Shown: positions 26,483 through 40,102 of the stretch, piece after piece
Layout: the number at the start of each line of letters is the position of its first letter
Position numbering within the stretch: the stretch's first letter is position 1
Assembly: GCF_027922305.1 (NCBI RefSeq)
Contig: NZ_BSFK01000013.1
Span: 1-64,000 of the forward strand
Direction of reading: 5' to 3'
Source of the DNA: Methylopila jiangsuensis
GTDB lineage: Bacteria > Pseudomonadota > Alphaproteobacteria > Rhizobiales > Methylopilaceae
DNA length: 64,000 bases
The notes under the pieces: generated by a model
The model's database searches: none
Seen by the model: only the letters and a program-made list of their open reading frames with translations
Told to the model about the DNA's origin: nothing
Position numbers and translations under genes: made by a program

Positions 26483-27271
26483 TCACCGCCCCGGCGCGAA
26501 GCGGCTGTGGGCGGCGCGGGCGGCGGCGTCGAGCAGGAAGCCGATCACGCCGATCACGACCACCGTCGCCATCAGTTCCGGGTAGGCGAGCCGGTCGCGG
26601 GTGTCGAGGATGAAGTAGCCGAGGCCGGCGGAGACGCCCAGCATCTCGCACGGCACCAGCACGATCCACGACACGCCGATGGCGAGGCGCAGGCCCGTCA
26701 GCACATGGGCGGCGACGCCGGGCAGGATCACCCGGCGCAGGGTCTCGAACCGCGTGGCGGCGAGGCTCTCCGCCAGCAGCAGCCAGCGCCGGTCGAGCTG
26801 GCGCACGCCGGCCGCGGTGTTGAGCAGGATCGGCCACACGGCGGCGAAGAACAGCAGGAAATGGATCGGCGCGTCGCCTACGCCGAAGGCCATCACCGCG
26901 ATCGGCATGAAGGACAGCGGCGAGATCATGCGCAGGAACTGGAACGCCGGCGTGGTCGCGGCCTCGAGCTTCGGGCTCGCGCCGATGGCGAGGCCGAGCG
27001 GCACGCCCACCGCGAGCGCCGCGATCAGCCCGATCGCGATCCGCCTGAGGCTGGTCCACACATGCAGCGGCAGGTCGCGGCCCTGAACCAGCTCGGCGAG
27101 GCTTGCGAAGGTGGGGCCCGGCGCGAACAGGCGCGCAAAGGAGCCCGGCGCCGGGACGACATCGGTCGCGACCCACCACAGCGCCACCAGCGCGCCAAGC
27201 CCCGCGAGGCCCAGCGCCGCGTGGCCCGCGGCGCGTCCGCGCGCCCCGGAGACGGACGGCCCGGGACTCAC
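26483..27271 (-). CDS. ABC transporter permease (nitrate/sulfonate/taurine type)
   Basis: A 262-residue inner-membrane permease of the SsuC/TauC/NrtB family (BPD_transp_1). It shows LHVWTSLRRIAIGLIAALAVGVPLGLAIG, the ATPase-docking EAA-type loop AESLAATRFETLRRVILPGVAAHVLTGLRLAIGVSW, and a terminal helix. The start is GTG at 27271, overlapping the TGA of the binding-protein gene (GTGA), which signals translational coupling. It is the last gene of the minus-strand operon that begins near the Rrf2 regulator. Confidence 0.88.
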   Translation of the reverse strand: MSPGPSVSGARGRAAGHAALGLAGLGALVALWWVATDVVPAPGSFARLFAPGPTFASLAELVQGRDLPLHVWTSLRRIAIGLIAALAVGVPLGLAIGASPKLEAATTPAFQFLRMISPLSFMPIAVMAFGVGDAPIHFLLFFAAVWPILLNTAAGVRQLDRRWLLLAESLAATRFETLRRVILPGVAAHVLTGLRLAIGVSWIVLVPCEMLGVSAGLGYFILDTRDRLAYPELMATVVVIGVIGFLLDAAARAAHSRFAPGR

Positions 27272-28467
27272 GCCGAGATGGTTTCCGTGCGAGTGAAGCC
27301 TTCCGGCAGGCCGAAGGCGGTCAGGCCGCCGGCCTCCAGCACCGCCTTGCGCACGAAGCTGTCGTCCACCAGGTCCCGGGCCGCGAAGGCGGGGTCGAGA
27401 TCGGCGAGGAAGCGGTTGTCGCCCTCGATCGCGGTGTCCTTCAGCCGGCGCACCAGCTCCTCGGTGTAGCTCGGGAACGGGTAGGGCTGGAAGTCGATGC
27501 GGCGCTCGCGCCAGTCCGGGTTGCGGATGGCGCCGGAGGCCGCATAGGCCGCGGCGTCGCTCTCCGCCGGCGCCAGCACCTTCTCCAGCACCGCCTTGGC
27601 GTGGGGGGTGTAGCGGTTGTCGCCGTCCTTGGACAGTAGGGCTGCGGTCTCCGCCCGGTTGTCGCGGGTCCAGAGCTGCGCCTTCACCATGGCGTTGACC
27701 ACCTTCTGCGACCACTCCGGCCGCTCGGCGAGATCGCGCTCCTGCATGAACACCACGCAGCAGGCGTGGTCCTTCCACACGTCGCCGGTGAAGCGCAGCA
27801 CCTTGCCGACGCCGAGCGCCTCCGCCGCGGCGTTGAACGGCTCGGCCACGATGTAGCCGGCTATCTGTTTGGCGGCGAGGGCCGGCACCATGTCGGACGG
27901 CGCCATGATCACGAGCTGCACCTCGTTCGGACCGGGAGCGCCGGTCTTCTTGGTGACGGGGGTGAGGCCGTTCTCCTTCAGCAGCGCCTGCAGCACCACG
28001 TTGTGGATCGAGTACCAGAACGGCACCGCCACCGTCTTGCCGCCGAGCTGCTTCACGTCGGTGACATCCGGACCGACGGTGAGCCCCGAGCCGCCGGTGT
28101 GGTTCCAGGCCACCACCTTGGCCGGCGCCTTGGAGCCGTAGCGCGCCCAGATGGTGATGGGCGACAGCAGATGCACCACGTTGACCTGGCCGGAGATGAA
28201 GGCCTCCACGATCTGGGCCCAGCTTCGGAACAGCACCGGTTTCTCGGCCTTCAGGCCCTCCCGGTCGAAGAAGCCCTTGCCGTGGGCCACCAGCAGCGGC
28301 GTGGCGTCGGTGATGGGGAGATAGCCGATCCGCACCGGCTGGTCCGCGCCCGCGGCTTGCGCCCGGGCCTCCGCGGCCCGCAGCAGCGGCGCGGCGCCAG
28401 CGGCGGTGAACAGGCCGGCGAGCTTCACCGCGTCGCGGCGGGAGAACACGAAATCGTCGGTCGGCAT
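27268..28467 (-). CDS. ABC transporter substrate-binding protein (NMT1/SsuA-like), Tat signal
   Basis: A 399-residue periplasmic binding protein. The twin-arginine signal SRRDAVKLAGLFTAAGAAP implies Tat export of the folded protein. The mature part has RIGYLPITDATPLLVAHGKGFFDREGL, typical of NrtA/SsuA/ThiY-type proteins for nitrate, sulfonates, taurine or related anions. The ligand is unknown. The DszC-like flavoprotein in the operon would fit an organosulfur or amine compound. The ATG at 28467 directly precedes the Tat motif. Confidence 0.87.
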   Translation of the reverse strand: MPTDDFVFSRRDAVKLAGLFTAAGAAPLLRAAEARAQAAGADQPVRIGYLPITDATPLLVAHGKGFFDREGLKAEKPVLFRSWAQIVEAFISGQVNVVHLLSPITIWARYGSKAPAKVVAWNHTGGSGLTVGPDVTDVKQLGGKTVAVPFWYSIHNVVLQALLKENGLTPVTKKTGAPGPNEVQLVIMAPSDMVPALAAKQIAGYIVAEPFNAAAEALGVGKVLRFTGDVWKDHACCVVFMQERDLAERPEWSQKVVNAMVKAQLWTRDNRAETAALLSKDGDNRYTPHAKAVLEKVLAPAESDAAAYAASGAIRNPDWRERRIDFQPYPFPSYTEELVRRLKDTAIEGDNRFLADLDPAFAARDLVDDSFVRKAVLEAGGLTAFGLPEGFTRTETISA

Positions 28468-28480
28468 GGCGGGGGCCTTA

Positions 28481-29248
28481 TCAGTGCGGGCGGAGGGCGG
28501 CGCGCAGCGCCGTGAGGATGTCGAGGCGCAGCGCGCCCAGTTCGGCGAGGGCGTCGTCCCGGGGGTGGGCGAGGGCGACGGTCCAGACGCCGATGGCCTG
28601 CGCCGGCCGGCCCCCGAGCAGGACCACCCGGTCCGCGAGGCCAAGCGCTTCGTCGATGTCGTGGGTGATCAGCACCGCGGCGGTTCCGTGGTCGGCCACG
28701 ATCTTCAGCAGCAGGCGCTGCATGCCGGCGCGGGTCACCTCGTCCAGCGCGCCGAACGGCTCGTCCAGCAGCAGCGCGTCGGGCCGGCGGGCGAGGCAGC
28801 GGGCGAGCGCCGCGCGCTGGGCCATGCCGCCGGAGAGCGCCGCCGGCTTCAGCCGCCGCGCGGCGTCGAGCCCGACCTCGGCGATGGCCGCGTCCACCAG
28901 CGCCTGCCGCTCGGCGCGGGCGCGCCGGGGCTGGCGTTTGAAGTCGAGCCCGAAGGCCACGTTGTCCTCCAGCGACAGCCAGGGCAGCAGGCTCGGGTCC
29001 TGGAACGCCATGGCGACGCGGGGGTGGGGGGCGTTGAGCGTCACGCCGCCGGCCGCCACATGGCCCTCGCTCGGCGGCTGCAGGCCGGCCAGCACCCGCA
29101 GCAGGCTGGACTTGCCGACCCCGCTCGGGCCGAGCACCGCCACCACCTCGCCGGGGGCGACGCTGAGGTCGAAGCCGCGCAGCACCGGGGCGGCGGCGCC
29201 CGGATAGCGGATGGCGACGTTCTTCGCCTCCAGCGCGGGCTGGCTCAT
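28481..29248 (-). CDS. ABC transporter ATP-binding protein (nitrate/sulfonate type)
   Basis: A 255-residue ATPase with Walker A GPSGVGKSS, Q-loop FQDPSLLPW, signature LSGGMAQRAALARCLA, Walker B ALLLDEPFGALD and switch ITHDIDEAL, typical of SsuB/TauB/NrtD proteins. It energises the permease encoded two genes downstream. Its start overlaps the stop of the flavoprotein gene by four bases. Confidence 0.92.
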   Translation of the reverse strand: MSQPALEAKNVAIRYPGAAAPVLRGFDLSVAPGEVVAVLGPSGVGKSSLLRVLAGLQPPSEGHVAAGGVTLNAPHPRVAMAFQDPSLLPWLSLEDNVAFGLDFKRQPRRARAERQALVDAAIAEVGLDAARRLKPAALSGGMAQRAALARCLARRPDALLLDEPFGALDEVTRAGMQRLLLKIVADHGTAAVLITHDIDEALGLADRVVLLGGRPAQAIGVWTVALAHPRDDALAELGALRLDILTALRAALRPH

Positions 29249-30321
29249 GCGGCGCGCCCTGTGGGCTCGCCCTGCGCGGCGAGCGCGGCCTTGAGCTGGA
29301 CAAGGCTCGGGGTGATCACCGGCAGGAACGCCGCCTCGCGCCAGCGCCGGGCGAAGCCCTCGCCGGGGCCGGCGAGATAGCACTTGCCGCCGCTCGCCTG
29401 CAGTTCGAGCCCGACCGCGTCGTTGGCGGCCTCCGCCAGCGCGATGCGGATGCGGAACAGCTCGGCGGGGCGGGCCACGAAGGCGCCCTCGGCGAGACCC
29501 TTGCGCAGGGCGTCCGTTCCCGCCTGAAGCCGCTCGGCGGTCGCGTCCAGTTCGGTCCCGAGCGCGTGGCGCCCCGCGCCGGCGGCTGAGCGCGCCTCGG
29601 CGAGCGACCGACGGGCGAGGCCGATGGACATCCCGATCTGGAAGCCGAGAAAGGCCGGGCGCACCTTCGGGCACCAGTCCAGCGCGTCGGGCGCGATCAC
29701 CTCGTCGGGGCCGACGTTCACGTCCTCGAAGCGCAGCGCCGCCGTGCTGGTGGAGCGCAGCGCCATCAGGTCGAGATCGGGCGACCGGATCACGCCGGCC
29801 CGGTCATGGGCGACGGAAGCCACGAACGGGCGCCCGTCCGGGCCCGAAACCGCAGCCGCCACATGGAAGCCCTCGGCCCGGAGATTGGTCACCCAGGGCA
29901 GCTTGCCGTCCAGCCGCAAGCGGCCGCCCTCGGCGCGGGCGGAGACCTGAAGCTCCTCCAGTCCGGCGAGGAACTTCATGGCGTTGGACAGGCCGGTGGC
30001 GCCGGCGACGCGGCCAGCGAACAGGTCCGGCAGCAGGCGGTCGCGCAGGGCGGCGTTCGGGCTCTGGAGCAGATACTCCACATAGGCGCGATGGCCCCAG
30101 AACACGAAGCCCGCCGCGAGCGAGCGCTCGGACACGGCGGCGATCGTCTCCACCACGTCGAAGGTTCCGCCGCCGGCGCCGCCGAGCGACGCGGGCGCGC
30201 CGATGCGGAACAGGTCCGCTGCGGCGAGGCGCGGCAGCAGCTCCGACGGCGCGACGGCGCCGGCGTCGAGGCCGGCGGCGGACGCATCGAGCCAGCCGGC
30301 GAGGATGGGGGAGAGGGCCAT
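29245..30321 (-). CDS. Acyl-CoA dehydrogenase-fold flavoprotein (possible class D monooxygenase)
   Basis: A 358-residue protein of the acyl-CoA dehydrogenase superfamily. It has FDVVETIAAVSERSLAAGFVFWGHRAYVEYLL, ATGLSNAMKFL, LPWVTNLRAEGFHVAAAVS and the late QASGGKCYLAGPGEGFARRWREA segment. The usual catalytic glutamate region of true acyl-CoA dehydrogenases is not evident. Such proteins beside sulfonate-type ABC transporters are often flavin-dependent N- or S-oxygenases of the DszC/SfnB kind, which use reduced flavin from a separate reductase. Substrate unknown. Confidence 0.72.
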   Translation of the reverse strand: MALSPILAGWLDASAAGLDAGAVAPSELLPRLAAADLFRIGAPASLGGAGGGTFDVVETIAAVSERSLAAGFVFWGHRAYVEYLLQSPNAALRDRLLPDLFAGRVAGATGLSNAMKFLAGLEELQVSARAEGGRLRLDGKLPWVTNLRAEGFHVAAAVSGPDGRPFVASVAHDRAGVIRSPDLDLMALRSTSTAALRFEDVNVGPDEVIAPDALDWCPKVRPAFLGFQIGMSIGLARRSLAEARSAAGAGRHALGTELDATAERLQAGTDALRKGLAEGAFVARPAELFRIRIALAEAANDAVGLELQASGGKCYLAGPGEGFARRWREAAFLPVITPSLVQLKAALAAQGEPTGRAA

Positions 30322-30340
30322 GGCGGTCAGGCGCGCGCCG

Positions 30341-30913
30341 TCATTCCGCGGCCGCAGCCTGCGGCCCGTCCCAGCGGTAGGCCTCAAGCTGGGGGTTCAG
30401 CGGCGGCTGGCCGAGATTGTTGGCGAAGTTGCAGAGCGTGGCGAGGCTGACGCCCAGCACCACCTCCAGCGCCGCCTGGTCGTCGAAGCCGGCCGCCTTG
30501 AACGCCGCGAGCTCCGCGTCCGACACCCGGCCGCGGGTGGCGATCACGGCGCTGGTGAAGGTCTGCACCGCGTCGAAGCGGGCGTCGCCGGTGGGCCGCA
30601 GCGCGCGTAGCGCGTCCACCCTGGCCTCGTCGAGTCCGGCCTTCTTGAACGCCACCGCCGTATGTCCGGCGACGCAGAAGCCGCAGCCATGGGTGGCGGC
30701 GGCGGTGAGCTGCACCACCTCGCGCTCGGCGAGCGGCAGCGACGCCCGGCCGTTCAGCCCGCCCACGGTGAGATAGGTCTCAAGCGCCACCGGCGCGTTA
30801 GCCAGCACCCGAAGCAGGTTCGGCAGGAAGCCGTTGGCCTTCTCCGCCGCGGTCAGGAACGGCTTCGCGGCTTCGGGAGCGTCGTCGACGGCGCGGAGCG
30901 GGAGACGGGACAT
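30341..30913 (-). CDS. Carboxymuconolactone decarboxylase / AhpD-like protein
   Basis: A 190-residue all-helical protein with the AhpD-type redox motif CGFCVAGH (CxxC followed by His three residues later) in AAATHGCGFCVAGHTAVAFKKAGL. Family members act as peroxidase-type disulfide reductases. In this operon it could protect or reduce the flavoprotein system or handle peroxide by-products. It follows the Rrf2 gene by 87 bases and precedes the flavoprotein gene by 19. Confidence 0.82.
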   Translation of the reverse strand: MSRLPLRAVDDAPEAAKPFLTAAEKANGFLPNLLRVLANAPVALETYLTVGGLNGRASLPLAEREVVQLTAAATHGCGFCVAGHTAVAFKKAGLDEARVDALRALRPTGDARFDAVQTFTSAVIATRGRVSDAELAAFKAAGFDDQAALEVVLGVSLATLCNFANNLGQPPLNPQLEAYRWDGPQAAAAE

Positions 30914-31000
30914 GAGCGGGCCCTTTCATGCTCTGGTGGTTGAGGCCGCAGTCGAAGGCCGCGCCTCAGCGGAGGAAGGATGGCGTTCCGGCGCTGGACG

Positions 31001-31450
31001 TCAAATCTGGTAGACGAAGCTCGCCATGCCGTCGCCGCCCAGATCCCGCATTTCCGTCAACGTGCGGTGGTCCAGAACGTCGGCGATCGCCTCCCGCACG
31101 TCGAGCATCATCATCCGCACCTCGCAGCGCGTGATGTCCTCGCAGTCCTGACACGGCGCATAGGCCGAGCGGCTGGCGCAGGGCAGGGGCGCCAGCGGCC
31201 CGTCGAGCGTGCGCACGATCTCGCCCACGCTGATCTCGTCGGAGGGGCGGGCCAGCATGTAACCGCCGAGACGTCCCTTCTTGCTGGAGAGCAGTCCGGC
31301 GTTGCGCAGGTCGCCGAGGATCGCGTCGAGAAACTTCTTGGGGATGCCGTTGCGCTCCGCGATCTCGGCCACGAAAGTCGAGCGGCCCGGCGGCAGCGAG
31401 GCCAGGTCGATCATGGCCTTGAGGCCGTATTTGGCTTTCTTCGTCAGCAT
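31001..31450 (-). CDS. Rrf2-family transcriptional regulator with four cysteines
   Basis: A 149-residue winged-helix regulator starting MLTKKAKYGLKAMIDLA, with the recognition region IPKKFLDAILGDLRNAGLLSSKKGRLGGYML. Cysteines are at 91, 100, 103 and 109 (CASRSAYAPCQDCEDITRC). Related regulators (IscR, NsrR, RirA) bind an Fe-S cluster through three cysteines in this loop, so cluster- or redox-sensing is plausible. It is divergent from the gltB-like operon and heads the ABC/flavoprotein operon, so it probably controls both. ATG at 31450 is the family start; the upstream extension is not conserved. Confidence 0.85.
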   Translation of the reverse strand: MLTKKAKYGLKAMIDLASLPPGRSTFVAEIAERNGIPKKFLDAILGDLRNAGLLSSKKGRLGGYMLARPSDEISVGEIVRTLDGPLAPLPCASRSAYAPCQDCEDITRCEVRMMMLDVREAIADVLDHRTLTEMRDLGGDGMASFVYQI

Positions 31451-31522
31451 GCGGAACTCGGGCCGGCGAGGGGCGCGGGGCGTCAGGAATCGACGGCCCC
31501 GAGCGGTGCGCGATTTTTTAAT

Positions 31523-31551
31523 TACATAGATTGAATAGATTTTATGGTCAA
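31523..31551 (-). promoter_or_regulatory. Promoter of the rrf2 operon with repeat in its spacer
   Basis: Minus-strand TTGACC (31551-31546), a 17-base spacer and TATGTA (31528-31523). The spacer holds ATCTATTCAATCTATG, a short direct repeat that could bind the Rrf2 protein itself. Confidence 0.5.
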
Positions 31552-31655
31552 GGCGCCGAGCCGACGCCGGGCGGCCATGCGATGCGCGATGACGTCCGCT
31601 TCCCCCGCGGCGTCGGAGCCTGATCTTCAAGGCGCAGGCGTAGTTCTTGAAATTG

Positions 31656-31688
31656 TTCAAAGTTCAATGTTGAGAGTCTATATTGAAC
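31656..31688 (+). promoter_or_regulatory. Promoter of the gltB-like operon with overlapping inverted repeat
   Basis: TTCAAA (31656-31661), a 17-base spacer and TATATT (31679-31684). GTTCAAT (31662-31668) and ATTGAAC (31682-31688) form an inverted repeat framing the spacer and -10, an arrangement expected for a repressor site. It would give a leader of about 113 bases. Confidence 0.5.
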
Positions 31689-31755: not shown

Positions 31756-31803
31756 AGTGAGTCCGCCGGGTCTTGGCCCCTCGCGAATTCAGGTCCGACG
31801 CCG

Positions 31804-34800
31804 TTGTCCGCTGCCGAGACTTACCGTCTTTTCGACGACGCCGAAGAACGTTCGAGCTGCGGCGTCGGCTTCATCACCCGCAAGGACGGCGTCCAGACCC
31901 ACGACGTGCTGGCGAAGGCCCATGAAGCGCTCTGCGCCGTGCCCCATCGCGGCGGCATGTCGGCGGAGGGCGTGGGCGACGGCGCCGGCGTGTCCGTGGA
32001 CCTTTCGCTCGGCTTCTTCCGCAGCCTCACCGGCCGCGCCGACCTGACGCCCGGCCGCTTCGGCGTGGGCAACGTGTTTTTGCCGCGCGATCCCGCCGAG
32101 CACGAGCGCGCCGGCCGCATCATCGCGGCGGCGCTCGCCGACGAGGGCATGGCCGTGCTGCTCACGCGCGACGTGCCGGTCGACCCGAGCGTGCTGCGGC
32201 CCGCCGCGGTGCGCCGCCAGCTTCCGATCCGCCAGTGGGTGTTCGCCGCGCCGGACGGCGCCCCGGACCTCGCCGCCTTCGACCGCGCCATCAACCGCGC
32301 GCTGCTGGCGATCGAGGCCGACGCCTATTCCGATCCCGCGCTGAAGGGCTTCTATCCGCTGTCGTTCTCGGCCCGCACCCAGGTGCTGAAGGGCCGGCTG
32401 AACTCCAACGAGGTGCTGCCCTACTTCCGCGACCTGACGGACCCGGCCCACGCGGTCCACACCCTGTTCTTCCACACGCGGTTCTCCACCAACACCGACC
32501 CGCGCACCTCCATGGCCCAGCCGTTCCGGCTGATGGCGCACAACGGCGAGCTCAACACCGACAAGAAGAACCGCCTGTCGGAGGCCGCGATCGCCCGAGC
32601 CCGCAACGGCCGCATCGTGTCGCCGGAAGGCCAGTCGGACTCCTGCCGCCTCGACCAGACGTTGCAGAGCCGGGTGATGGAGGACGGGCTCGACCTCGTG
32701 ACCGCGGTGGTCTCCATGATGCCGCCGGCCTGGGAGAACGACGCGACGCTCTCCCCCCAGGTGCGGGCGATGTTCGAGTATTTCTCGCTCTACGAGGAGA
32801 AGAACGACGGCCCGGCGGCCCTCGTCTTCGGCGACGGCGAGATCATCGGCGCGCGCCTCGACCGGCTTGGCCTGCGCCCGCTGCGCTCGGTGGAGACGGC
32901 GGAGTACCTGTGCGTCATGTCGGAGGCGGGGCAGATCCGCTTTCCGGCCGAGACGGTCCTGCGCCGCGGCCGCATCGAGGCCGGCGGCATGCTGTACTGG
33001 GACCACCGCGAGGCGCGGTCCTACGGCACGGCCGACGCGCTGGAGAAGCTCGCCGGCGCCCGCGACTACAAGACCCTGCTGGACGCCGCCCGCGTCACGC
33101 TGGAGGCCCTGCCGGACATCCCGGCGGAGGCTCAGGGGTCGCCGCTGCGCTACAACGGCGATCTGGAGCGCCACCAGCGCTACGTCGCCTATTCGCACAA
33201 TCAGGAAAGCTTCAAGTTCCTGATGGACCCGATGCTGCAGACCGGGTCCGAGAAGATCGCGGCCATGGGCTACGGCCTCGCCATCAACGCGCTCTCCGAT
33301 CAGGAAGGCGGCGTCGCCAAGTATTTCTCCCAGCGCTTCGCGCAGGTGACCAACCCGCCGCTGGACAGCTTGCGCGAAGCGGACGGCATGACGCTGCGGG
33401 TGGCGCTGGGCGCCAAGCCCAACATCGGCGCGCCCTCGGCGCCGCAGATCGTGATCCGCTCGCCGGTGCTCAGCCATCTCGACATGCTGAAGATCCGCGA
33501 GCAGGGCGCCACGCCGAAGCAGCGGTTCGACATCCTCTACGTCCCCGTGTTCGGCGACCCGGCCGGCGCCGCCCGCGCCATCGAGGCGGCGGTCGAGGCG
33601 GTGTGCGATCAGGTCGAGGCCTTCGCGCGCGAGAAGGGCGGCGTCGCGGTGCTGACCGACCGGCACGTGGCGCGCGACCGCGCGGCGCTGCCGCTGATCA
33701 TCGTGATCTCGGCGGTGAACCAGCGCCTGATCGAGCAGGGGCTGCGGCTCCGGGTGTCGCTGATCGCGGAGAGCGGGCAGATCGCCTCCTCGCACCATGT
33801 GGCGACCGCGCTCGGCTTCGGGGCGTCGGCGGTCTATCCGCTCGGCGTCCAGTTCCGGGCCGAGGAGAAGTACGGCGCCGACGCCGACAAGGCCTTCAAG
33901 CGCTTCGCAAAGGCGGCGGAGAAGTCGCTGATGAAGACCATGGGCAAGGTCGGCCTCTGCACCGCCGAGAGCTACATCGGCGGCGAGTTCTTCGAGCCCA
34001 ACTTCCTCGACACCAACGACGGCCCGCTGAAGCGCTGGTTCCCCAACGTGAAGACGCCGGTCGGCGGCGTGACCTTCGAGGTCATCGCCCAGGCGGCGGC
34101 CGACTGGCACCGGAAGGCGCTCGACGTGCGCGGCGAGGACGACATCCCGCTGCTCGGCCTGTTCAAGGAGCGCGCGGAAGGCGCGGGCCACTCCTTCGGC
34201 GTCGCCGCCGTGCGCGGCTTCGTGGACATGACCGAGGAGCCGATCGCCTTCGAGGCGCCGGACGCCGGGTCGGATGCGGACGCGCTGCGCCTGCTGCCGC
34301 TGACGCGGCTCGCCGACGCCTTCGGCCTCGACGAGGAGGCCTACAAGCGCACCAGCTTCGAGCGCCGCAGCCCGCAGGAAATCGACGCCTTCCGCATCAC
34401 GCCCGGCTATCGCGCCTTCAGCCGCATGATGGCGGAGGAGCGCATGCGCCGCCCGGCCGCGCTCCGCGACGTGCTGGCCATGCCGGCGGACGTCACCTTC
34501 CTGACCCACGCGGACGATTTCCGCCGCGAGCTCGGCCGCTTCGCCCGCTTCGGCAATGTGAGCGTCCTCGCCCGCGGCCTGACCCCGGAGCGGGTCGGGG
34601 CGGACGAGTTCCGGCTCGACCTCACCGGGCCGCTCGGCGCCGATCCGGGGCGCCTGACCGCGCTCGGCCAGTCGCTGGTGCAGCGGTTCAAGGCCGACAT
34701 CCTCGGCCACTGGGTCGAGGGCGGGCGGCTCGCGCTCAAGGCGAAGGGCGAGGCGCTGGCCTGGCTGTCGCTGCTGCAGGCCGCGCCGGACAGCGTGGAG

Positions 34801-37296
34801 CTGGAGGAGGTGCAGCCCGCGCACGAGATCACGGCCCTGCTCACCTCCGGCGCCATGAGCCACGGCGCGCTGAACGCGCCCGCTCACGAGGCGGTCGCGC
34901 ACGGCACCAACATGGTCGGCGGCCTGTCGAACTCCGGCGAGGGCGGCGAGCACATGTCGCGCTACGGCACCATCCGGGCGTCGCGCATCAAGCAGCTCGC
35001 CTCGGGCCGCTTCGGCGTCTGGGCCGGCTATCTGGCCGATCCGATGCTGGAGGAGCTGGAGATCAAGATCGGGCAGGGCGCCAAGCCCGGCGAGGGCGGC
35101 CAGCTTCCCGCCGCCAAGGTGACGGTGGAGATCGCGGCCGCCCGCGGCGGCACGCCGGGGGTGGAGCTGGTCTCGCCGCCGCCGCACCACGACACCTATT
35201 CGATTGAGGATCTCGCCCAGCTCATCCACGACTGCAAGGCGGCGCGGGTGCGGGTGATCGTGAAGCTGGTGTCCTCCGAAGGCGTCGGCGTCATCGCGGT
35301 CGGCGTGGCCAAGGCCGGCGCGGACGTGATCAACATCGCGGGCGCCACCGGCGGCACCGGCGCCGCCGCCGTCACCAGCCTGAAGTACACCGGCCGCGCG
35401 GCGGAGATCGGCGTCGCGGAGGTGCATCAGGCCCTCGCCGCCAACGGCCTGCGCCAGAAGGTGACGCTGCGCTGCTCCGGCGCGCACCAGACCGCGAGCG
35501 ACGTGGTGAAGTCCGCGCTGCTCGGCGGCGACAGCTTCGAGTTCGGCACCACGGCGCTGATGATGCTGAAATGCGTCATGGCCAAGAACTGCAACATCAA
35601 GTGCCCGGCCGGCCTCACCACCAACTCCGAACTGTTCGACGGCGATCCGCGCGCGCTCGCCCAATACCTGATGAACATCGCCCACGAGACGCGGGAGATC
35701 CTCGCGGTGCTCGGGCTCAGGTCGCTGCGCGAGGCGCGGGGCCGCTCCGACCTGCTGCACCTGCTCGACCATCCGGCGAGCGTCGGCCGGCTCGACCTGC
35801 GCGCCATGCTGACCCCGGCGGACGAGGTCATCGTCGACGCGCCGGTCTACATGGAGGCCGAGTACGAGCTCGACGACGCCTGGAGCGTCGCCGCCGAACA
35901 GGCCTTCGTCGCCGAGGGTCGGGCCGAGCTCGCGCTCGAAGCCGGGCGCCGCATCGGCAACCGGGACAAGAGCGTGGGCGGACGGCTCGGCGTCGACATC
36001 GAGCGCCTGCTCAACCACACGCTCGCGCCCGAAGTCGCCCGCGCGCTTCCCGCGGTGCTGGAGGACGATCGCGGCCGGCGCTACCTGCGCCCCGGCGCGC
36101 TCACCGTCTCCACCTGGGGCTCGGCCGGCCAGTCCTACGGCGCGTTCTGCAACGACGGCATGGCCATGCGCCATGTGGGCGTGTGCAACGACGGCGTCGG
36201 CAAGGGCCAGTCCGGCGGCGTGATCGCGGTGACGAGCCCGGGCGGCGGCTCGGACGAGGCCGGGGGCAACGTGCTGGTCGGCAACTTCGCGCTGTTCGGC
36301 GCCACCGGCGGCCGCGCCTTCATCGGGGGCCAGGCCGGCGACCGCTTCGCGGTGCGCAACTCCGGCGCCACCGCGGTGGTGGAGGGCGTCGGCGACTTCT
36401 GCTGCGAATACATGACCAACGGCGCGGTGCTGAACCTCGGGGCCTTCGGCAAGGGCTTCGGCAACGGCATGAGCGGGGGCTTCGTCTACCAGTACGATCC
36501 CTATGGCGACCTGCCCGCCAAGGCGAGCCACGACTCGATCCTGCTGTTCCCGGTCACGGGGCCGGACGCCGGCTTCCACGCCGACGCGGTGCGGCTGATG
36601 CTGGAGTGGCACCTGGAGGAGACCGGATCGCCCAAGGCCCGCTGGCTGCTGGACAACTGGGAGACCGAGCGCTCCAACTTCGTCTACGGCCTGCCCGCCG
36701 CGCTGCTGCAGTACCAGGACGCGGACGCCATCCTGAAGGCGAAGCCGCGCAAGGACCTGCTGGAGGAGCTGAGCCTCGCCTCCGCCTCCTGGCAGGTGCG
36801 CAAGTTCAAGCTGGCCTATCGCGACCGCCGCGTGGTGGCCGGCGGGGCGATCCCGTCCGAGGGCGACGTGGGCGCCGAGGCGGGCCTGCGGCTGCTGAAC
36901 GAATACGCGGTGCTCGCCATGGCGCAGCAGCTGGCGCTCGCCCGGCTGCCGGGCGTCGGCGACGTCGCCCATCCGGCGGTCGCCGCCGCGGTGCGCAAGC
37001 TGCTGCTGACCGAGGACTTCGCGCTGATGCAGAAAATCCAGCGCCACGCCCGCGAGGCCCTGTCCGCCTATGGCGACGAGGAGCTCGCGGCGCTGGTGGC
37101 GGACAAGCGGCTGTCCGACTACCGGGCGGCGCTGAGCCTGCGCAACGTGCTCTCCATGGACAGCCCCGGCGTCTATGGCTGGATCCTGCAGCAGAGCGCG
37201 AAGAACCGCGCCGCGCTCGGGCGCCTGCCGAGCTACGAGGAGCTGTTCGCCCGCGCCTCGGTGCGGGACGTCGCCGCCTTCGCCGGTCGGGCCTGA
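31804..37296 (+). CDS. Oversized glutamate synthase large-subunit-like protein
   Basis: This protein has 1830 residues against about 1500 for GltB. Domains in order: an N-terminal glutamine amidotransferase type 2 with nucleophile Cys19 (SSCGVGF) and PHRGG, TNTDPRTSMAQPF, MAHNGELNTD; a central GltS domain from about 440 (QESFKFLMDPMLQTG); an FMN/glutamate-synthase barrel at about 1000-1330 (SGAMSHGALNAPAHEA, NSGEGGEHMSRYG, GGTGAAAVTSLKY); cysteines 1257, 1263 and 1267 for [3Fe-4S], spaced C-x5-C-x3-C rather than the usual C-x5-C-x4-C; a GxGxG beta-helix (GNFALFGATGGRAFIGG) at about 1480-1570; and a C-terminal extension of about 150 residues. The start is TTG, just ahead of Cys19. No gltD lies beside it; a diflavin reductase follows after 42 bases. 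The role may be glutamate synthesis or a related amidotransfer. Confidence 0.85.
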   Translation: MSAAETYRLFDDAEERSSCGVGFITRKDGVQTHDVLAKAHEALCAVPHRGGMSAEGVGDGAGVSVDLSLGFFRSLTGRADLTPGRFGVGNVFLPRDPAEHERAGRIIAAALADEGMAVLLTRDVPVDPSVLRPAAVRRQLPIRQWVFAAPDGAPDLAAFDRAINRALLAIEADAYSDPALKGFYPLSFSARTQVLKGRLNSNEVLPYFRDLTDPAHAVHTLFFHTRFSTNTDPRTSMAQPFRLMAHNGELNTDKKNRLSEAAIARARNGRIVSPEGQSDSCRLDQTLQSRVMEDGLDLVTAVVSMMPPAWENDATLSPQVRAMFEYFSLYEEKNDGPAALVFGDGEIIGARLDRLGLRPLRSVETAEYLCVMSEAGQIRFPAETVLRRGRIEAGGMLYWDHREARSYGTADALEKLAGARDYKTLLDAARVTLEALPDIPAEAQGSPLRYNGDLERHQRYVAYSHNQESFKFLMDPMLQTGSEKIAAMGYGLAINALSDQEGGVAKYFSQRFAQVTNPPLDSLREADGMTLRVALGAKPNIGAPSAPQIVIRSPVLSHLDMLKIREQGATPKQRFDILYVPVFGDPAGAARAIEAAVEAVCDQVEAFAREKGGVAVLTDRHVARDRAALPLIIVISAVNQRLIEQGLRLRVSLIAESGQIASSHHVATALGFGASAVYPLGVQFRAEEKYGADADKAFKRFAKAAEKSLMKTMGKVGLCTAESYIGGEFFEPNFLDTNDGPLKRWFPNVKTPVGGVTFEVIAQAAADWHRKALDVRGEDDIPLLGLFKERAEGAGHSFGVAAVRGFVDMTEEPIAFEAPDAGSDADALRLLPLTRLADAFGLDEEAYKRTSFERRSPQEIDAFRITPGYRAFSRMMAEERMRRPAALRDVLAMPADVTFLTHADDFRRELGRFARFGNVSVLARGLTPERVGADEFRLDLTGPLGADPGRLTALGQSLVQRFKADILGHWVEGGRLALKAKGEALAWLSLLQAAPDSVELEEVQPAHEITALLTSGAMSHGALNAPAHEAVAHGTNMVGGLSNSGEGGEHMSRYGTIRASRIKQLASGRFGVWAGYLADPMLEELEIKIGQGAKPGEGGQLPAAKVTVEIAAARGGTPGVELVSPPPHHDTYSIEDLAQLIHDCKAARVRVIVKLVSSEGVGVIAVGVAKAGADVINIAGATGGTGAAAVTSLKYTGRAAEIGVAEVHQALAANGLRQKVTLRCSGAHQTASDVVKSALLGGDSFEFGTTALMMLKCVMAKNCNIKCPAGLTTNSELFDGDPRALAQYLMNIAHETREILAVLGLRSLREARGRSDLLHLLDHPASVGRLDLRAMLTPADEVIVDAPVYMEAEYELDDAWSVAAEQAFVAEGRAELALEAGRRIGNRDKSVGGRLGVDIERLLNHTLAPEVARALPAVLEDDRGRRYLRPGALTVSTWGSAGQSYGAFCNDGMAMRHVGVCNDGVGKGQSGGVIAVTSPGGGSDEAGGNVLVGNFALFGATGGRAFIGGQAGDRFAVRNSGATAVVEGVGDFCCEYMTNGAVLNLGAFGKGFGNGMSGGFVYQYDPYGDLPAKASHDSILLFPVTGPDAGFHADAVRLMLEWHLEETGSPKARWLLDNWETERSNFVYGLPAALLQYQDADAILKAKPRKDLLEELSLASASWQVRKFKLAYRDRRVVAGGAIPSEGDVGAEAGLRLLNEYAVLAMAQQLALARLPGVGDVAHPAVAAAVRKLLLTEDFALMQKIQRHAREALSAYGDEELAALVADKRLSDYRAALSLRNVLSMDSPGVYGWILQQSAKNRAALGRLPSYEELFARASVRDVAAFAGRA

Positions 37297-37338
37297 GCCC
37301 GAAACGCCAACCCCTCGCCGATCCGGTCGCCCACGCCC

Positions 37339-39108
37339 ATGTCCATTCCGCACATTCCCGACGACGCGCCCTTTTCCGGCGAGCAGCGCGTCTGGCTCGC
37401 CGGCTTCCTCGCGGGCCTGAACTCCCGCCTGCTGGAGAGCGCGGCGCCGGTCGCCGGCGCCGCCGTCTCGGCCGCGGTCGAGGCGCAGGGCGCGCCGCTG
37501 CTGGTGCTCTACGGCACCCAGACCGGCAACGCCGAGGCGGTGGCGAACGACGCCGCCGCCAAGGCGCGGACGCTGGGCCTTGCGCCCGAGGTGCTCGGGC
37601 TCGACGACGTGGACATGGCGCGCTTCACGGGCGCGGAGCGGGTCCTGATCGTCTGCTCCACCTATGGCGAGGGCGAAATGCCCGACAACGCCCATCTGTT
37701 CTGGAAGGCGCTGTCCGCGGAGACCGCGCCCCGGCTCGAACACATGAGCTTCTCGGTGCTGGCGTTGGGCGACACCGGCTATGACGGCTTCTGCCAGGCG
37801 GGCAAGCTGATCGACACGCGGCTCGAGCAGCTCGGCGCCAAGCGGGTCGCGGCGCGGGTGGACTGCGACGTGGACTACGAGACGCCGGCGGCAAGCTGGA
37901 TCGACGAGGCCGTGCCGGCGCTGCCCCAGGGCGCCGGGGTCGCGGCGGCCGCGCCGGCGCCCGCGCCCGCCGCGGCGCTGGCGGCCAGGGCCGCCTGGAG
38001 CCGCCGCAACCCCTATCCGGCGGCGCTCTCGGTCAACCGCCGGCTGTCTTCTCCGGCCTCCGCCAAGGACATCCGCCATCTGGAGTTCGCGCTCGGCGAC
38101 AGCGGCCTCACCTACGAGGCCGGCGACGCGCTGGGCGTGGTCCCCGCCAACGACCCGGCGCTCGTCACGGCGCTGCTGACCCGGCTCGGCCTGAAGCCGG
38201 ACGCCCCGGTTCCGGGCCACGACCGCCCGCTCGGCGAGCTGCTGGGGGCCGCGTTCGAAATCCGCACGCCGTCGCGGGATCTGGTGGCGGCGGTGGAGGC
38301 CCGCGCCGGCGACGAGGCGCTGACCCATGTGCTGCGCCACGGCGACAAGGAGGCTCTGGACGCCTTCCTGTGGGGCAAGGACGTGCTGGACCTGCTCGCC
38401 ATCAACCCGTCGGTTGGCTTCGACGCCGAAGGCTTCGCGGCGCTGCTGCGCCCGCTGCAGCACCGGGCCTATTCGATCTCGTCGAGCCCGCTGGTCTATC
38501 CTGACAGCGTGCATCTCACGGTCGCCGCGGTGCGCTGGCGCTCCGAGCACCGCGATCACGGCGGCGTCTGCTCCACCTTCCTCGCCGATCGCGTCGACGC
38601 GGACGGCCGCGTCGGGGTGTTCGTGTCGCCCAACAAGGCGTTCCGTCCGCCGGCGGACCCGAACGCGCCCATGGTCATGATCGGGCCGGGCACCGGCGTC
38701 GCGCCGTTCCGCGCCTTCCTGCAGCAGCGGCAGGCTACCGGCGCCAGGGGCCGCAACTGGCTGTTCTTCGGCGACCAGCATCGCGCCCACGACTTCTCCT
38801 ATGAAGACGAACTCGGCGCCATGAGCCGCGACGGGGTGCTGACCCGGCTCGATCTCGCCTTCTCCCGCGACCAGGCCGAGAAGATCTATGTGCAGACCCG
38901 CATGCGCGAAAACGGCCCCGACCTGTTCGCGTGGTTGGAGGACGGCGCCTCGGTCTATGTCTGCGGCGACGCCAGCCGCATGGCCAAGGACGTGGACGAC
39001 GCGCTGCACGACGTGATCCGCGTCCACGGCGCCCGTTCGCCGGAGGCGGCGGCGGATTACGTGGACGATCTGCGCAAGGCCAAGCGCTACCTGCGCGACG
39101 TGTACTGA
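37339..39108 (+). CDS. CysJ-type diflavin NADPH reductase
   Basis: A 589-residue protein with an FMN flavodoxin domain (LLVLYGTQTGNAEAVA, CSTYGEGEMPDNAHLFW, LALGDTGYDGFCQAG), a FAD domain (HRAYSISSSPLVYPD, GVCSTFLAD) and an NADPH domain (MIGPGTGVAPFRAFLQQRQ, YVCGDASRMAKDV), ending in KRYLRDVY as in CysJ and P450 reductases. It normally feeds NADPH electrons to the CysI sulfite reductase hemoprotein, but no cysI is present here. Its position right after the gltB-like gene, which has no gltD, suggests it may be that protein's electron donor. Sulfite reduction with a remote CysI is the alternative. Confidence 0.9.
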   Translation: MSIPHIPDDAPFSGEQRVWLAGFLAGLNSRLLESAAPVAGAAVSAAVEAQGAPLLVLYGTQTGNAEAVANDAAAKARTLGLAPEVLGLDDVDMARFTGAERVLIVCSTYGEGEMPDNAHLFWKALSAETAPRLEHMSFSVLALGDTGYDGFCQAGKLIDTRLEQLGAKRVAARVDCDVDYETPAASWIDEAVPALPQGAGVAAAAPAPAPAAALAARAAWSRRNPYPAALSVNRRLSSPASAKDIRHLEFALGDSGLTYEAGDALGVVPANDPALVTALLTRLGLKPDAPVPGHDRPLGELLGAAFEIRTPSRDLVAAVEARAGDEALTHVLRHGDKEALDAFLWGKDVLDLLAINPSVGFDAEGFAALLRPLQHRAYSISSSPLVYPDSVHLTVAAVRWRSEHRDHGGVCSTFLADRVDADGRVGVFVSPNKAFRPPADPNAPMVMIGPGTGVAPFRAFLQQRQATGARGRNWLFFGDQHRAHDFSYEDELGAMSRDGVLTRLDLAFSRDQAEKIYVQTRMRENGPDLFAWLEDGASVYVCGDASRMAKDVDDALHDVIRVHGARSPEAAADYVDDLRKAKRYLRDVY

Positions 39109-39145
39109 ACCGCCCCCCGAAACCGCGCCAAGGGATCGACGCGCC

Positions 39146-40102
39146 ATGCCCCAGCCCTGCCGCGGCGGCGGCTGTCAGAACCGCAGGTTCAGCGAACGCG
39201 ACATCCTGCTCGCGGAGCCGGGAGTCTTCGCCACCACCATCGCGGCCTCGTTCGAGCGCGTCGCGCGGGACCTGCGCGGCATGGACGGGCTGGTGGCCGT
39301 CACGTCGAACCCGGCCGCGGTGATGACGCAGATCGGCGAACTGCCGCCGGCGTCGCGCGCAGGCGGGCGGTTCGCGCCGCCCAAATCCGGGGCCGCGCTG
39401 CGCCTGCGCCCTGAGAGCGTCGACGCGGCGCTGGCGGTGGAGCGCGCCGCCTGCGGGCGGGCGCCGTGCTCGGTGCGGTTCTTCACCGCCGAGGGCGGTG
39501 CGCTGCACAAGGTGTTCCTGTCCGCGCTGATCGACGACTACGCCTTCGCCGAGCTGGCCTCGGACTGGGTCGCGCCGGAGGAGGCTGAGCCGGAGAGCGC
39601 CGCCTCCGGCGAGCCGCGGACGCCCGACGCCCAGGGCTGGAGCCGCCGGGGGCTCGCCTTCCACATCGACAGCCTGTTCGGCGACGGCGGGCTTCGCCGC
39701 CGCGCGCTGCTGCCCCGATGGGGCCGGGACGAGGCGTGGCGGATCGACCCGGAGATCGCGGTCCATCTGCTCGGCCTGCTGACCGAGGCGCGCATGCCGG
39801 TCACGCTGGTGGTGCCGAACGAAGCCTTCGCGCAGATGCATGTGGGCGCGTTCGACGACGTGCGGCGCTCCGGCGACCGGCTGCGGCTCTGCGCCGGCGA
39901 GTGCTCGGTCTCGCTCGACATGGCCGAGGTCGAGGAGGTCTGGGTCTCGCGCTACGACGAGCGCGGCCGCGCGGGGCTGATGGTGGAGTTCTACGACTGG
40001 GGCTTCCAGTGCGTGGCGCAGATCACCGAGACCGGCGACGACCCGCGCCTCGCCCGCTTCTGGCGCCGCGCGGTGGAGGACCTGCCGCCGCTGCAGGTGT
40101 GA
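39146..40102 (+). CDS. HemS/ChuX-like protein with Cys-rich N-terminus
   Basis: A 318-residue protein. The segments AEGGALHKVFLSALIDDYAFAEL and AEVEEVWVSRYDERGRAGLMVEFYDWGFQCVAQI resemble halves of hemin-degrading or heme-utilisation (HemS/HutX/ChuX) domains. The N-terminus MPQPCRGGGCQNRRF has a C-x4-C pair. Heme ligands cannot be assigned. It lies 37 bases after the diflavin reductase, so it belongs to the same operon. It may carry heme or another cofactor for the complex, or take electrons from the reductase as some heme-degrading proteins do. Family assignment is tentative. Confidence 0.6.
   Translation: MPQPCRGGGCQNRRFSERDILLAEPGVFATTIAASFERVARDLRGMDGLVAVTSNPAAVMTQIGELPPASRAGGRFAPPKSGAALRLRPESVDAALAVERAACGRAPCSVRFFTAEGGALHKVFLSALIDDYAFAELASDWVAPEEAEPESAASGEPRTPDAQGWSRRGLAFHIDSLFGDGGLRRRALLPRWGRDEAWRIDPEIAVHLLGLLTEARMPVTLVVPNEAFAQMHVGAFDDVRRSGDRLRLCAGECSVSLDMAEVEEVWVSRYDERGRAGLMVEFYDWGFQCVAQITETGDDPRLARFWRRAVEDLPPLQV

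Follow-up and report, generated by a model that had tools for sequence, protein, structure and literature searches.

The 64,000-nucleotide stretch of the Methylopila jiangsuensis genome analysed here (contig NZ_BSFK01000013.1; hereafter the window) carries three genes in tandem on the plus strand, a GltB-like, a CysJ-like and a HemS-like gene, for which we use the names GltBx, CysJx and HemSx. In the list of open reading frames the intergenic gaps are 42 and 37 bases. The genes, and the features recognised within GltBx, are as follows.

31804..37296, plus strand: GltBx, distinct-family homologue of the glutamate synthase (GOGAT) large subunit, 1830 amino acids, TTG start
31858..33075, plus strand: class II glutamine amidotransferase domain, GATase_2 (GltBx residues 19-424; Pfam)
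33178..33996, plus strand: Glu_syn_central, glutamate synthase central domain (GltBx residues 459-731; Pfam)
34222..34782, plus strand: region of a family-specific insert, central-to-FMN domains (within GltBx residues 807-993; alignment)
34786..35718, plus strand: Glu_synthase, flavin mononucleotide (FMN)-binding domain (GltBx residues 995-1305; Pfam)
35572..35604, plus strand: C-x5-C-x3-C, presumed [3Fe-4S] ligands (GltBx residues 1257, 1263 and 1267; alignment)
36052..36552, plus strand: GXGXG beta-helix domain (GltBx residues 1417-1583; Pfam)
36745..37293, plus strand: family-specific C-terminal extension, predicted all-helical (GltBx residues 1648-1830; alignment and model)
37339..39108, plus strand: CysJx, diflavin reductase with FMN, flavin adenine dinucleotide (FAD) and reduced nicotinamide adenine dinucleotide (phosphate) (NAD(P)H) domains, 589 amino acids, proposed electron donor of GltBx
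39146..40102, plus strand: HemSx, two-repeat HemS/PhuS/ChuS-fold protein, 318 amino acids, optional third gene

All four GltB domains were found in GltBx in GltB order, and these, like the domains of CysJx (Flavodoxin_1, FAD_binding_1 and NAD_binding_1) and of HemSx (HemS and ChuX_HutX), scored over the Pfam cut-offs. Neither gltD nor cysI adjoins the trio, both being encoded elsewhere in the window's own genome. Coordinates, domains and neighbourhood thus confirm what the initial annotation had described: three consecutive, closely spaced plus-strand genes, of which the first has the full GltB layout with no gltD next to it and the second is a complete diflavin reductase with no cysI beside it. 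Antisense to GltBx and CysJx runs a minus-strand open frame of 2452 codons (31789-39147), likely a by-product of high G+C content.

By its sequence, GltBx is a family distinct from canonical GltB, with identities of 63-87% within the family as against 30-47%, by segment, to canonical GltB. In an alignment of five GltBx and two canonical sequences (E. coli and the window's own genome), the glutaminase motifs (N-terminal CGVGF, RFSTNT and HNGE-NT) and the FMN-domain stretches GAKPGEGGQLP, SPPPHHD-YSIEDLAQLI and GGTGA were all kept. A CG(V/I)GF motif lies near the N-terminus of 87 of the 88 GltBx sequences; in the window the TTG start is about 18 residues ahead of Cys19, which is followed by GVGF and which we presume to be the catalytic nucleophile, a role known from the family. 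The three cysteines presumed to bind the [3Fe-4S] cluster are spaced C-x5-C-x3-C in 88/88 sequences, in contrast to C-x5-C-x4-C in E. coli and in the genome's own canonical GltB, confirming the altered spacing reported initially. Two further segments set the family apart in the alignment: an insert of roughly 140 extra residues within residues 807-993, on which the initial annotation had been silent, and a C-terminal extension, the presence of which had been noted correctly, its length being about 180 residues and not about 150. No Pfam match below E 0.1 was obtained for either segment, nor up to E 10 for the insert region, and the extension matched no known family and no solved chain. A structural model limited to residues 770-1830 (mean predicted local distance difference test score 70) has helices throughout the extension, and a Foldseek search with this whole model retrieved GltB structures.

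Scanning genome contigs with GltBx gave at least 574 confirmed relatives, and we kept the best 80. CysJx follows GltBx in every one of these and in 7/7 further loci from plasmid records and other genomes, so that the two genes are adjacent on one strand in 87/87 loci plus the window, their matches lying 12-199 bases apart; the co-occurrence of a GltB-like with a CysJ-type gene is therefore conserved. Going by database labels, some of which may be wrong for contigs and metagenome-assembled genomes, the 80 loci comprise 42 from alphaproteobacteria, 17 from Enterobacterales, 15 from Actinomycetota, 3 of SAR92 type, 2 from betaproteobacteria and 1 from a verrucomicrobial metagenome-assembled genome. 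Among plasmid records, 9 of 57 matched at 63-75% identity and the other 48 at less than 60% (33-43% for those listed), leaving a clear identity gap. Pairwise distances of GltBx and CysJx correlate over the 88 copies (r 0.94), a value that co-inheritance alone would give. Among 61 relatives of the window's genome, GltBx and a close HemSx occur in the same three, so that in this genus the trio is gained or lost as a block; canonical GltB is present in 60/61, the exception being a genome that is 67% complete.

The partner reductase also stands apart from its known relatives. A branch supported at 99/98 separates 40 CysJx sequences from 11 other CysJ sequences, in a tree in which several outgroup branches are long, and CysJx thus groups as a clade separate from the other CysJ proteins sampled. 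The window CysJx contains no cysteine motif of the Fe-S type, any C-x2-3-C at all occurs in 5 of 88 copies, and the conserved cysteines of the family form no cluster motif.

HemSx is an optional accessory. Foldseek matched it to PhuS, HemS and ChuS structures (E 1e-20 to 3e-17, 17-23% identity), and it was found in 20/80 loci, 17 via the window protein and 3 (L101, L103 and L106) via a Ketogulonicigenium homologue. Copies share 22-60% identity, suggesting that HemSx evolves fast and may be missed elsewhere. No invariant His was seen across 18 aligned HemSx sequences. The initial proposal that a HemS-like protein is the third component is upheld only in part: the gene stands behind CysJx in those 20 loci, and in the rest it is absent or undetected.

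We then asked where the pair stands relative to gltBD. In the window's own genome, canonical gltB lies on contig C4 and is followed by gltD (C4:27405), so that the separate GltD adjoins canonical GltB and not GltBx. Searching 26 of the genomes behind the loci with PF01645 recovered canonical GltB in 15/26; it is absent from the other 11/26, which have GltBx alone, namely a SAR92 genome (G070) and ten genomes of Pantoea, Mixta, Erwinia, Winslowiella and Enterobacter-labelled strains (G072-G081). Nine of these eleven (G070 and G072-G079) gave no GltD match at E 1e-15, the E. coli control being positive, and in G080 and G081 GltD matched solely in longer paralogues, frames of 651-1101 amino acids that we take, by their size, to be AegA/YgfK-like. 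Reliance of GltBx on an unlinked GltD, which had been put forward as a way in which the pairing could fail, is hence not general. Among 119 genomes of the family to which G075 belongs, GltBx is present in 4 and is the only GltB in three (G075, G150 and G199); 67/119 have canonical GltB and 49/119 have neither, and of these the ones listed are mostly very small genomes. In G150 and G199 neither canonical GltB, GltD nor a PF00208 glutamate dehydrogenase (GDH) was found, the large NAD-dependent GDH family lying outside the search. Some bacteria appear to rely on the GltBx-CysJx form alone. In another enterobacterial-family genome (G173, locus L151), GltBx-CysJx occurs together with canonical GltBD and without a PF00208 GDH.

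The PF01645 searches also returned proteins consisting of the FMN domain only: an additional 446-residue frame in G072, a 452-residue frame that is the third PF01645 protein of the window's own genome (C16:629988-630962) and of L017, and similar frames in several other genomes.

Replacement of gltBD by the pair, visible in gene order, is the strongest evidence obtained. The E. coli genes run mtgA, elbB, arcB, yhcC, gltB, gltD ... sspB, sspA, rpsI, rplM. At the enterobacterial GltBx loci (Pantoea, Erwinia and kin), arcB lies upstream in 17/17, sspB lies downstream of the pair in 15/17 within the stretch examined, and yhcC was not found at any of the 17. The E. coli yhcC-gltB leader is nevertheless kept upstream of GltBx in 17/17 (52-112 bases, 75-90%, E 1e-19 to 7e-10). 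The pair therefore sits at the E. coli gltBD site in Enterobacterales and, since arcB and the ancestral gltB leader are both kept, the coding genes were swapped behind the old leader. SAR92 is a second case of replacement: its order is pilM, pilQ, aroK, aroB, GltBx, CysJx, hemE, where Acinetobacter has pilM, pilQ, aroK, aroB, gltB, gltD (hemE was not found in the stretch examined) and in Pseudomonas hemE comes after gltBD. The CysJx of SAR92 groups with Paracoccaceae and Roseobacteraceae (support 90/83) and that of the enterobacteria with Lampropedia and Methylobacillus (support 95/89), which suggests that the two replacements were separate events.

Taken together, this analysis suggests that GltBx and CysJx make up an NADPH-dependent glutamate synthase, with a diflavin reductase of the CysJ type standing in for GltD, a reading to which we give a probability of roughly 80%. 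Electrons would pass from NADPH to the FAD and then the FMN of CysJx, and from there to the single [3Fe-4S] cluster and the FMN of GltBx, where ammonia derived from glutamine by the N-terminal domain would combine with 2-oxoglutarate to yield glutamate; the extra GltBx segments may serve to dock CysJx. That CysJx is the electron donor of GltBx we infer from two facts that make it the most economical candidate, namely that GltD is gone and that CysJx is always adjacent.

Published work on Pantoea ananatis bears on the product. According to the accessible part of a 2025 paper (PMC12364357), strain AJ13355 has no close homologue of the E. coli GOGAT, its putative gltB shares 64% identity with an A. 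tumefaciens GOGAT large subunit, knockout of gltB leads to glutamate auxotrophy (citing Hara 2012), and GDH activity in glucose-ammonium medium is near the detection limit; that part names no electron donor. In our comparison, the GltBx proteins of P. ananatis LMG 2665 and A. tumefaciens CNPSo 675 share 68% identity, while the P. ananatis protein reaches no more than 42% with E. coli GltB, and the gene knocked out was therefore very likely GltBx. The initial annotation had left the product open between glutamate and another amidotransfer product; the reported auxotrophy supports glutamate. The arrangement is genuine, occurs widely and is mostly what had been guessed, a variant glutamate synthase with a diflavin partner. 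Among the sources that our literature searches covered in part, no description of a GltB-CysJ pairing was found.

Several observations weigh against this proposal. Canonical GltB coexists with GltBx in the 15 genomes noted above, and 10 of the 11 GltBx-only genomes have a PF00208 GDH (G070 gave a weak partial match only), so that, by sequence, GltBx is not the sole possible source of glutamate in those genomes. GltBx scores 1038.9 bits, just under the cut-off of 1047 of the NCBIfam GltB equivalog NF008730. Its FMN domain has SGAHQTA for canonical DGGLKTG in addition to the altered cysteine spacing; cofactor or kinetics may therefore differ from those of canonical GltB. CysJx in turn falls under the CysJ cut-offs of TIGR01931 (614.6 vs 668) and PRK10953 (520 vs 838), and over that of the CysJ-type PRK06214 (471.3 vs 432).

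GltBx could also take its electrons from ferredoxin or flavodoxin, in the manner of the ferredoxin-dependent GOGAT (Fd-GOGAT) of plants and cyanobacteria, with the co-transcribed CysJx serving something else. GltBx is, like Fd-GOGAT, a single large subunit without GltD, and its best solved relatives include Fd-GOGAT structures; this explanation is nonetheless improbable, as CysJx, in a clade of its own, adjoins GltBx at every locus, and both genes are kept at the replaced gltBD sites, where nothing else is common.

Less probable still, and largely refuted, is that CysJx is a spare sulfite-reductase flavoprotein for CysI and stands beside GltBx incidentally, a role that the initial annotation had also allowed for. 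The CysJx sequence resembles CysJ (E 2e-184 to TIGR01931), and the genes upstream of it in the window resemble sulfonate and cysteine metabolism; in the two congeners with the trio, however, these sulfur genes do not adjoin it, and CysJx forms its separate clade. Moreover, the window's own genome has a CysI-like gene directly followed by a second CysJ on contig C5. A second CysJ is present in 10 of 12 genomes behind the loci and adjoins a CysI-like gene in 8 of those 10, so that CysJx does not appear to be the partner of CysI there; in two actinobacterial genomes (G069 and G071) it lies within a frame of 1359-1417 amino acids with no CysI match nearby. In the two genomes where no second CysJ was found (G061 and G065), CysJx could still act as the partner of CysI.

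The upstream genes themselves form a minus-strand cluster of sulfur-scavenging type (26483-31660), divergent from the trio. It encodes a sulfonate/nitrate-type ABC permease, ATPase and binding protein, an SfnB-like dehydrogenase, an AhpD-like protein and a CymR/IscR-like Rrf2 regulator. A sulfur role for the trio deduced from this cluster was rejected on the evidence of the two congeners, where the search gave one weak ABC-ATPase match only (36%). An Rrf2 homologue lies upstream of GltBx in 1/80 loci (L060).

We next considered iron. GltD carries two [4Fe-4S] clusters, and clustered cysteines are evident in the copy of the window's genome (CMDC, C-x5-C and C-x3-C) and similarly in E. coli; CysJx has none. 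The pair would thus need one [3Fe-4S] cluster against one [3Fe-4S] and two [4Fe-4S] for GltBD, which may be why it is retained beside GltBD. In Caulobacter, the canonical glutamate synthase is reported to be lowered by iron limitation, termed iron sparing in PMC3751524. We scanned 81 upstream stretches for boxes matching Fur, RirA, CymR, Irr, IscR, NsrR and IdeR consensuses, and IdeR alone stood out. Scored against the consensus, an IdeR-like box of at least 13/19 lies upstream of 12/15 actinobacterial GltBx, where random stretches drawn from these loci would give 0.12; since many of the 15 loci are closely related, the 12 do not count as independent cases. In Ketogulonicigenium the trio is followed by siderophore uptake genes, and homologues flank some other loci.

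Other results of the scan speak against iron sparing. Fur, RirA and CymR boxes were near control level and Irr, IscR and NsrR boxes in slight excess only across the 81 stretches, three of the 15 actinobacterial GltBx leaders lack a good IdeR-like box, and seven canonical actinobacterial gltB leaders score 9-13, one of them reaching 13. Upstream of 10 enterobacterial GltBx, the best Fur box scored 14/19, most scoring 10-12. Iron sparing by GltBx-CysJx is thus possibly correct, with partial support. The fuller scenario, an NADPH-diflavin GOGAT that uses flavins for the [4Fe-4S] clusters of GltD, acts as a low-iron isoenzyme beside GltBD and has twice displaced gltBD as sole synthase, is tentative, and we would put it a little short of an even chance.

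In mycobacterial-type loci (L061, L064-L066, L070, L072, L080, L088, L108 and L113) a conserved leader element, CTCA ... CGAG ... CCC, lies about 100 bases before GltBx and after the IdeR-like box; it has a weak consensus fold and no Rfam match. Three Rhodococcus leaders (L059, L073 and L115) share GACAACGACGTCT upstream of GltBx, two of them without an IdeR-like box. In Rfam searches, six loci gave no match at gathering score, and the matches near the leader in the window were at chance level only.

Diflavin reductases feed heme oxygenases, and the HemS/ChuS fold of HemSx, the actinobacterial IdeR-like boxes, the siderophore uptake genes adjoining the trio in Ketogulonicigenium and the homologues of TonB receptors or siderophore-interacting proteins that flank some other loci could all be read as heme or siderophore iron acquisition, with CysJx reducing HemSx and GltBx making another amidotransfer product. 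This is highly unlikely, as HemSx is confined to a quarter of the loci (20/80) and occurs at none of the enterobacterial loci where gltBD was replaced, it has no invariant His, and the knockout phenotype reported in PMC12364357 is glutamate auxotrophy.

Among the known systems closest to the proposed GltBx-CysJx synthase is NADPH-GOGAT, GltB plus GltD (EC 1.4.1.13; Azospirillum 6s6x family, Bacillus 7mfm). The two share the large-subunit domain order, glutaminase Cys, FMN domain, three cysteines and beta-helix and, in Erwiniaceae-type genomes, the same chromosomal site; they differ in the diflavin partner in place of GltD and in the cysteine spacing, two extra segments and low segment-wise identity of GltBx. 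Fd-GOGAT (Synechocystis 1llw, 1ofd) likewise has a large subunit without GltD and a similar core, but GltBx always has an NAD(P)H-diflavin reductase gene next door. CysJ (6efv, 9c91), the best solved relative of CysJx, has flavodoxin, FAD and NADPH domains in the same order, whereas CysJx is paired with GltBx and not CysI, falls under TIGR01931 and PRK10953, and forms its own clade. HemSx shares the two-repeat fold of HemS, PhuS and ChuS, and is unlike them in its low identity, its want of an invariant His in 18 sequences and its place within the GltBx operon.

GOGAT is one of the main points at which nitrogen enters metabolism, and to our knowledge the bacterial enzymes described so far depend on GltD or ferredoxin. 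If true, a third GOGAT electron donor would change how the genes are annotated in hundreds of genomes, where GltBx is at present a glutamate synthase-related protein and CysJx a sulfite reductase alpha subunit, and would explain how Pantoea and its relatives make glutamate without gltD. If the pair is iron-sparing, it would be an amino-acid counterpart of the ferredoxin-to-flavodoxin swap.

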